From Pseudorhodoferax aquiterrae (GTDB lineage: Bacteria; Pseudomonadota; Gammaproteobacteria; Burkholderiales; Burkholderiaceae_C): a stretch of 64,000 nucleotides of DNA. The stretch covers positions 248,001 to 312,000 of the forward strand of contig NZ_BMYK01000006.1 of the NCBI RefSeq assembly GCF_014652235.1, in the 5' to 3' direction. The stretch's first letter is position 1. Each line of letters begins with the position of its first letter. Of the stretch, positions 24,424 through 26,211 are shown piece by piece. A program made the translations under genes and the position numbers. A model generated the notes under the pieces. The model was given only the letters and a program-made list of their open reading frames with translations, had not been told where the DNA came from and did no database searches.

Positions 24424-25455
24424 TCAACGCCGGCGCGCGAACTGGCGCTGCGCGAAGGCCCAGACCAGCCGCGAGGCGTCCGGCCCGTCCGGATCGCCGT
24501 AGGCCTGCGTGGCCGCGCCGCCGCTCCAGGCGTGGCCCAGCGCCGGAATCTCCACCAGCGTGGCCATGGTGCGCTGGCGCACGCGGTAGTCGGTCACCCG
24601 CATGGCGTGGCGCTTGCCGCGCTGCACCGCCCGCGCCTCGCCGGGCAGCGCCTGCGCGGCCTGGGCCCAGGCCAGGGCCGCAGCCGCGCCGTTGCGCGGT
24701 GCGACCACGCGGTCCTGGCCGCCCTGGATCACGAGCAGTGCGGGCCAGTGCGCCAGCATGGCGTCGGGCGTCGCGGCCAGCGCATCCGTCGCGCCGTGGC
24801 CGGCCATGGCGCGCAGGGCCGAGGCCGTGCTGTGGGCCGTTCCCGGCGGCACCCCCGAATGCATGGCGACGGCCTGGAAGCGCTCCGGATAGCGTGCCGC
24901 GACCAGCGCCGCCATGCCGGCCCCGGCCGAAAGACCGGCGATGGCCACGCGCGTGCGGTCGCCGCCGTACAGCGTGCAGACTTGCTCGACCGCCTGCAGC
25001 ACCAGGGCGGCCTCGGCAAAGGCACGCTGGGTGCGCGTTTCGTACCAGTTCCAGCAGCCGTTGGGGTTGGCCAGGCGGTCCTGCTCGGGGTAGAGCACGG
25101 CGAAGCCGGCGCGCGCGGCGATCAGGTGCATGCGCGTGCTGGCTGCAAAGCGCGCGGCGTTCTGGTCGCAGCCGTGCAGCATCACCACCACCGGGATGCG
25201 CTGGCCCGGCAGGCGGCCCGCCGGCAGGAACAGCCGGTAGCGCCGCTTGCCGGCCGGCGCCACCGCCACGCCCCAGAGCCAGCGCCCGCCCGACGACCTG
25301 GCCGGCGCGGTCTTGGCCCGCGTGCGCACGCGCTGGGCTGCGGGGAGTGCCTTGGCCGGGCTGGCCTTGCTGCGGCGCGGCCTGGATGGCATCAAGGGCG
25401 CCAGACTGCTCGTGAACAGCCGCGTGAGGTTCTTCAGGGTCTTGCGTCGGAGCAT
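24424..25455 (-). CDS. PHB depolymerase-family esterase (feruloyl esterase-like)
   Basis: A 343-residue alpha/beta hydrolase of the extracellular PHB depolymerase/LpqC type. The oxyanion region is VVVMLHGCDQNAARFA (about residue 92), the nucleophile is Ser in AIAGLSAGAGMAAL (about 171), an Asp lies in IQGGQDRVVAP, and the His is in IPALGHAWSGG. The N terminus is basic and lacks a clean signal peptide. There is no obvious ribosome site at the ATG, so the true start may be internal (Met near residue 22). The gene's upstream region is occupied by the palindromic element at 25482-25755, only 26 bp away, so transcription must start in or beyond it. Confidence 0.85.
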   Translation of the reverse strand: MLRRKTLKNLTRLFTSSLAPLMPSRPRRSKASPAKALPAAQRVRTRAKTAPARSSGGRWLWGVAVAPAGKRRYRLFLPAGRLPGQRIPVVVMLHGCDQNAARFAASTRMHLIAARAGFAVLYPEQDRLANPNGCWNWYETRTQRAFAEAALVLQAVEQVCTLYGGDRTRVAIAGLSAGAGMAALVAARYPERFQAVAMHSGVPPGTAHSTASALRAMAGHGATDALAATPDAMLAHWPALLVIQGGQDRVVAPRNGAAAALAWAQAAQALPGEARAVQRGKRHAMRVTDYRVRQRTMATLVEIPALGHAWSGGAATQAYGDPDGPDASRLVWAFAQRQFARRR

Positions 25456-25481
25456 GGAGGCGGAAGCGGCCGAAGAGAGGG

Positions 25482-25755
25482 CTCAGAGGGTGTTTCCGAA
25501 ATCAATAGGCCGACGTGTGGCCCCAGGGCGCGGCCAATCAAGGCGCAAGGCGCCGTGCGGGCTGTCTGCCCGCACAAGCCTTGCAACGCCGAGTGGGCGT
25601 GCCCTGGGGCCGCACCCTTCGGGCCGGGGCGCCCTGCGGCCATGGGCTGCGTTGCGCCACTTGGCCGGGCTGCAGCACGGCCTGCGTGTCGCGCCTTGCC
25701 CATGACCGCAGGGCACCCCGGCGTGGGCCTATTCATTTCGGAAACACCCTCTGAG
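25482..25755. repeat. Nested palindromic MITE-like element (274 bp)
   Basis: The element is bounded by 34-bp terminal inverted repeats (25482-25515 and 25722-25755; CTCAGAGGGTGTTTCCGAAA at the outer end) with two mismatches. Inside are two more inverted repeats: 25515-25531 with 25598-25614, and 25624-25647 with 25698-25721 (22 of 24 match). The first encloses a perfect 8-bp stem (GTGCGGGC/GCCCGCAC, 25555-25575). It encodes no credible protein and no transposase. I see no clear target-site duplication. It lies between the divergent esterase and the small gene at 25996 and is probably a mobilised or folded repeat; one copy is present in this window. Confidence 0.75.
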
Positions 25756-25995
25756 ACAGCTTGCACCGAGTGTGCCAGCGCCGCATGTCACACGCTGCGG
25801 CGCCCGGTGGCCAGCGCGATGCCGGCCAGCACCGCGACCAGTCCCCAGAATTCTCCGCCCATGTCCTGGTCTCCCAGGCCACAGCCTACGCGATGCAGGC
25901 CCTGGCCCGGCGCCCGAATCGGCCTGCGCCTACACCGCCGGCCGAGCTGCCGGGCCGAGCATGGGGCCTTGTCCAACGACACACAGGAGCAGCCA

Positions 25996-26211
25996 ATGTC
26001 CAAGAAGCCCTCTCCCACCCGCAGCGACATGGACGGCGACCCGCAGGCCCAGGCCCACGGCAAGGTCGCCAACGACCGCAACCAGCCCACGCCGGGCGGC
26101 GCCACGCAGATCCACCAGTCGCAGCGCTCTCCGGCCAGCCGGAACGACCGCGAATCGCAGATCGGCTCGGGCAACCAGGTGCGCAGCCGCCAGGGCGGCA
26201 CGGGGCGCTGA
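25996..26211 (+). CDS. Small hydrophilic protein (71 aa)
   Basis: A very polar, probably disordered product rich in Gln, Arg, Ser, Asn and Gly, with no hydrophobic core. AGGAG lies about 6 nt before the ATG, and a factor-independent terminator follows at 26329, so the small transcript is credible. No family is recognised. Composition recalls small stress-linked proteins of Burkholderiales and the gene at 875. Confidence 0.6.
   Translation: MSKKPSPTRSDMDGDPQAQAHGKVANDRNQPTPGGATQIHQSQRSPASRNDRESQIGSGNQVRSRQGGTGR

Follow-up and report, generated by a model that had tools for sequence, protein, structure and literature searches.

A folded 266-bp element upstream of an esterase gene in Pseudorhodoferax aquiterrae, probably a non-autonomous IS5-type MITE, and its relatives across Burkholderiales

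A 274-bp palindromic stretch lies upstream of an esterase gene in the window, the whole 64,000-nucleotide stretch of Pseudorhodoferax aquiterrae DNA analysed here, and raises the question of what such a nested structure is and how it came there. The sequence-only reading had considered a MITE that an IS enzyme moves in trans, a structured RNA and a binding platform. We interpret the element as a non-autonomous IS5-type MITE of 266 bp with a 3-bp TNA duplication, to which we assign a probability of about 0.93; no transposition was observed.

The element and its insertion site

The palindromes described from the letters alone were all recovered. The terminal inverted repeats (34 nt, arms 25482-25515 and 25722-25755) are 94% complementary with two mismatches, and enclose two inner inverted repeats with 25-nt arms, I3 (25515-25539/25591-25615, 84%) and I2 (25623-25647/25698-25722, 92%), whose loops contain further stems. 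The perfect 8-bp hairpin corresponds to the stem GTGCGGGC/GCCCGCAC in the predicted fold. Folded alone, the element is predicted to form an outer stem, two hairpins of about 100 nt and a CCTTCGG mini-hairpin, with an MFE for 25482-25755 of -217.5 kcal/mol against -134.4 +/- 5.4 kcal/mol for 200 dinucleotide shuffles (z = -15.3), none of which was as stable. The palindromic stretch of 274 bp thus stands, but the mobile unit itself is the 266 bp from 25486 to 25751 (GAGGGTG...CACCCTC), since the outer CTCA and TGAG represent target sequence plus duplication.

Table 1 Coordinates of the element, its parts and the neighbouring gene in the window
Feature	Position	Strand	Basis
Esterase gene, PHB depolymerase family	24424-25455	-	PF10503, NF050058
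CTCA: target C and left copy of the 3-bp duplication (TCA, 25483-25485)	25482-25485		flanks, G004 empty site GGCTCAGACAG
Left terminal inverted repeat, core part (GAGGGTGTTTCCGAAATCAATAGGCC..)	25486-25514	+	inverted repeats, copies, alignment
Hairpin 1 (~100 bp), inner conserved motif AGGCGC ... GCAAC, 8-bp tip stem	25515-25615	+	
Mini-hairpin CCTTCGG of two pairs, separating the large hairpins at the four-way junction	25616-25622	+	
Hairpin 2 (~100 bp), conserved motif inverted (GTTGC ... GCGCCT)	25623-25722	+	
Right terminal inverted repeat, core part	25723-25751	-	
TGAG: right duplication copy (TGA where TCA is expected) and target G	25752-25755		

MITEs are elements of a few hundred bp in which a transposase gene is absent. 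The unit meets this size criterion and carries no plausible gene, as had been proposed; the open frames that cross it, for example 110 aa on the minus strand and 152 aa on the plus strand, are of a kind common in GC-rich DNA. The length and complementarity of the terminal repeats fit a MITE as well.

The insertion lies in a CTCAG target, with the esterase gene to one side and, to the other, a small reading frame on the opposite strand. The esterase frame begins at 25455 on the minus strand, which leaves the 26-bp gap reported earlier. The element had been suspected of carrying or blocking the esterase promoter; a search of 25300-26050 gave no sigma-70-like site, an absence that proves little. 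Within the 64-kb window, the covariance model described below finds only this one element.

Mobility was inferred from copies and from an empty site. The host genome (a 7.1 Mb draft) contains seven full-length copies at 95% identity or more, the window copy included, and one further copy cut at a contig end; their different flanks place them at unrelated sites. A second genome of the genus (G002) contains one full-length copy together with deletion derivatives (loci L049 and L050) that have kept the end repeats but lost hairpin 1 or portions of both hairpins. At the esterase locus of genome G004, whose flanks are 92% identical, the element is missing: where the window carries GGCTCA, the element and TGAGACAG, G004 has GGCTCAGACAG, with CTCAG as the empty site, and the insertion therefore split C-TCA-G. 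A sequence without a second copy and present in all strains, which by the sequence-only reading would have argued against a mobile repeat, is not what was found.

The target duplications anticipated by that reading are only partly in place. Identical TNA flanks were identified at five of the eight full-length subfamily loci (counted without the truncated C40 copy and the G002 derivatives), two have no duplication, and the window copy has TCA on its left and TGA (25752-25754) on its right, though the empty site has TCA. Either a point change or conversion from a TGA copy may account for this mismatch; the two are not distinguishable here.

IS5-type insertion sequences with similar ends

An IS with the same terminal repeats was one of the expectations for a MITE moved in trans. 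IS5-type insertion sequences with the same target were found, but their ends are similar to those of the element rather than identical. It is because of these similar ends and targets that we assign the element to the IS5 type; together with the copies, the empty site and the duplications they support movement in trans, which is inferred.

In the host genome, IS5 transposase C-termini are located at the starts of two contigs. The fragment matches PF01609 above the cut-off and NF033580 below the cut-off on the fragment, and a profile search for a partner transposase with PF13340 gave no match in this genome. At the one side that is readable, the IS fragments end in GAGGGTGTATCTAAAATGATTC or in a version of it that has a further change, and TCAG and TTAG come next; 17 of 21 letters of this end are like the element end, as judged by eye. 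No intact partner IS is readable in the host genome, where each of the two copies, at contigs C15 and C16, is interrupted by a contig end. The IS5 transposase fragment is present in one of the six genomes of the genus, and copies of the MITE subfamily are present in two.

On a Comamonadaceae plasmid, a 1238-bp IS5-like element (L188, 744-1989) has the ends GAGGGTGTAGACGAAATCAACTGGCC in CTAAG, to be compared with GAGGGTGTTTCCGAAATCAATAGGCC of the window family. This IS is unannotated and its family assignment comes from DNA similarity and translation; an annotated IS5 element of P. putida (L187) resembles it. The commonest end of the superfamily described below, GGGCCTGTTAACACTACGGCAATG, is located at both ends of an 805-bp IS (L259, 2501-3305) annotated as IS5 family with a C-TA-G target, with 2 and 1 mismatches of 19. 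The BLAST match that led to this CTAG-type IS has only E = 0.6, and it carries weight because GGGCCTGTTAACACTACGGCAATG is found at both IS ends. Briefly, these IS5-family insertion sequences, whose targets are CTNAG or CTAG, share with the element similar terminal repeats, the same target and a duplication of 2-3 bp, and differ from it in their length (about 0.8-1.24 kb) and in having a transposase frame. We take the subgroups concerned to be IS1031 (TNA) and IS427 (TA). The name ISPsy19 appears as an annotation only under partial, weaker plasmid matches. The window element itself has no match in the plasmid and phage collections, and a G012 relative (locus L143) has none in plasmids.

By inference from these ends and targets, an IS5-family transposase would bind both ends of about 30 bp and insert the unit at staggered cuts around T-N-A.

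A folded superfamily across the order and its branch at stop codons

The element is one member of an order-wide superfamily, which the sequence-only reading could not have revealed. Paired changes preserve the body of the members, whereas their sequences and ends have drifted apart. The weaker matches in its own genome number 57, and 32 of them lie outside the window-subfamily copies. Twenty of these 32, examined with their flanks, revealed a family of about 222 bp with different ends and a similar plan, 17 with ends of type GAACGTGTGAACGAACCG and 3 of another; relatives in other genera have yet other ends. Among 40 places examined, 35 have a convincing outer repeat of 186-329 bp, none was found at L133-L135, and those of L137 and L098 are doubtful and weak, respectively. 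A further end type, GAGCGTGAGAGGCAATTG, surrounds a related hairpin body on contig C33 of genome G000 (L097, 50-280).

A covariance model was built from the RNAalifold consensus of 24 aligned elements (273 columns); the consensus has 98 pairs, and in 81 of them both sides have changed with pairing retained. The model matches 27 of 40 sampled genomes of the family, with best matches of 260-271 bp in 19, 161-239 bp in 4 and 80-100 bp in 4, and, under stricter filters, 26 of 60 sampled genomes of the order; the own genome is included in both samples and some matches are partial. Among the matches listed, full-length ones occur in at least 12 families besides that of the host. The set of superfamily loci fetched numbered 60, with L161-L164 excluded because their best matches span only 80-100 bp; its 117 model matches collapse to 60 places and then to 46 members below 90% identity.

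The plan of these members is nearly invariant. The length is 260-271 bp in 43 of the 46, and in the model-fitted alignment no unpaired base interrupts the four-way junction in any of these 43. Both hairpins contain the same partly unpaired motif, as AGGCGC...GCAAC in one and inverted as GTTGC...GCGCCT in the other, while the median pairwise identity among the 46 members is 46% with gap columns counted as mismatches; folding energies range from -103 to -228 kcal/mol. Longer members occur in genome G010 (L110, 144-441; L112, 109-433), where an extra hairpin is inserted in hairpin 1 and, in L112, an additional hairpin also stands at the centre. In locus L143 of genome G012, two elements (1501-1768 and 2564-2831, 795 bp apart) flank a single gene, which was considered as a transposase and rejected; by eye it resembles a class-II glutamine amidotransferase.

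Across 103 superfamily loci, TNA flanks the element on both sides in 56 (identical in 51) and TA in 24, and our script detected no duplication in the other 23. These 23 are omitted from the frame and orientation tallies below, and the orientation tally also omits unresolved rows; locus L140 repeats L002 in the duplication, frame and orientation tallies.

The 222-bp sister family is closely associated with stop codons. It was investigated at 36 fetched loci (L209-L243 and L248, the last of another end type), which are not all of its copies, as the end gave 88 matches against 15 for a control pattern. TNA is present on both sides at 35 of the 36. Read in the element's own orientation, the duplication is TGA in 35/35, all in one orientation, and at 33 of 35 loci this TGA closes an open frame with 100 codons or more; the fetched flanks contain 168 other CTGAG sites, of which 26% do so. 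Nine of ten tested frames match Pfam domains in frame, several of the matches stopping only a few residues short of where the family ends, so the frames represent real gene ends. In the CTAG class of 268-bp elements a frame is present on at least one side in 20/24 (26 of 48 sides) where about 13/24 would be expected from a control (32% of 76 TAG sites), with no clear orientation (8 versus 4 one-sided cases among 22), and three of the six subfamily loci with TNA on both sides (L002, L006 and L007) terminate such a frame. Targeting of stop codons and selection at them cannot be told apart here. A search for a partner IS with the short 222-bp end as query gave nothing convincing (best rows E 0.1 to 5). 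On contig C55 of genome G000 (L047, 70-320), a 222-bp element lies directly against an IS-like end, GAGGGTGTATCTGAAAT, in the same CTGAG target, and two elements apparently used one site.

What keeps the arms paired, and known systems

Selection on a folded RNA would be expected to tolerate G-U far better than A-C, whereas changes in the arms of DNA would make both alike. With one almost constantly U-G pair excluded, we counted 138 G-U, 75 A-C, 161 other and 3976 Watson-Crick cells in the model-fitted alignment and 50, 29, 60 and 1494, respectively, in an unfitted MAFFT alignment. Because the overall ratio of G-U to A-C is only about 1.7-1.8, the pairing looks to be kept mainly at the DNA level, although this is not settled. 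The ratio varies among the parts, with 63 to 13 in hairpin 1 (partly from two neighbouring pairs), 32 to 36 in hairpin 2 (again without the U-G pair) and 43 to 26 in the ends. The 222-bp copies have 20 G-U, 18 A-C, 13 other and 2538 Watson-Crick cells (G-U to A-C by distinct types 12 to 17), and the window subfamily has 3 G-U versus 4 A-C. The structures behind the counts in the 222-bp, G012 and window-subfamily copies come from predictions on those very copies, a bias towards pairing. Two processes could maintain pairing at the DNA level, alone or together: template-switch correction of one arm from the other, and selection for a cruciform or folded strand.

A tentative reading, which we hold to be somewhat less than probable, is that the body has a function as a folded DNA (or RNA) device, maintained at about 268 bp across Burkholderiales with changing IS5-type ends, and that its 222-bp branch is a stop-codon inserter. 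Such a device would be a gapless four-way junction with two arms of about 100 bp presenting the same inner motif in mirror orientation, a single structural module carried by successive transposase types. The inserter, if real, would duplicate TGA in constant orientation behind a gene.

It is possible, if rather doubtful, that the element is an ordinary MITE whose functionless inner palindromes persist only by template-switch repair of arm from arm. Template switching was proposed for RNA stems by Monttinen and Loytynoja (PMC8794818), and it can maintain pairing without function. The G012 copies agree with this, as their paired changes have few intermediates (154 compensated cells versus 20 G-U, 7 A-C and 4 other; 36 compensated distinct types versus 11, 7 and 3), so that these more diverged copies are mainly compensated (154 versus 31 cells, 36 versus 21 types). 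The 222-bp copies show the opposite, mainly single-arm departures (51 versus 11 compensated cells, 40 versus 2 distinct types), with a variation of 1.4% in paired columns and 7.3% in unpaired ones; arm correction is therefore not instantaneous. Template switching alone also leaves unexplained the near-constant length, the junction without gaps and the unpaired motif in both hairpins.

We consider it unlikely that selection keeps the folded transcript of a structured non-coding RNA encoded by the element, with mobility secondary. The two-sided changes, the conserved unpaired letters in both hairpins and the excess of G-U over A-C in hairpin 1 and in the G012 copies would suit a transcript, and the 222-bp family, behind a stop codon in one orientation, would be transcribed if transcription runs on. 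However, the excess is small overall and in the ends and is not seen in hairpin 2, the 222-bp cells are nearly balanced with their distinct types leaning to A-C, as does the window subfamily, and the CTAG class lacks a clear orientation. In Rfam, the window element has only two weak matches to miRNA models, far below the cut-off, and four relatives have no match up to E = 1 and none above the gathering score. A structured RNA or binding platform, as raised at the outset, is neither shown nor excluded for this element. A recombination site of REP/BIME or attC type in place of an IS5-type MITE would share the folded hairpins, the intergenic position and the genomic repetition, but is very improbable, as REP/BIME units are short palindromes with a GTAG tip mobilised by RAYT (the REP and attC motifs being compared only by eye) and this anatomy is unlike the long terminal repeats and TNA or TA duplications found here, with IS5-like ends and an empty site.

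The kind of element, an IS5-type MITE, is known; for the superfamily with its near-fixed folded plan and stop-codon branch no name was found in the literature matches listed or in Rfam, and among those matches no paper was recognised as describing the element. Bacterial MITEs are usually recognised by a sequence common within a species or genus; here one architecture of near-fixed length is recognisable across an order by covariation, and a role of the inner structure in transposition or for the host therefore becomes testable. The stop-codon sister family, with its constant orientation, offers a direct test of targeting versus selection, and effects on mRNA 3' ends can be tested there as well.

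Polaromonas belongs to the same bacterial family as the host, and a MITE reported from its strain JS666 may therefore be a member of the superfamily. That MITE is named in a review (PMC10969869). RUP of Streptococcus pneumoniae is likewise a small MITE tied to a full IS by similar ends, in this case IS630-Spn1 with a TA target; it differs from the present element in its length of 107 bp and its IS630 type, and the available portion of the account gives no fixed architecture common to an order (PMC2229807). The CIR elements of Caulobacter and Brucella bear only a partial resemblance to MITEs, and no outer stem joining their arms is mentioned in the same portion, but like the present element they have two long inverted-repeat arms with a linker and are conserved across genera (PMC2229807).
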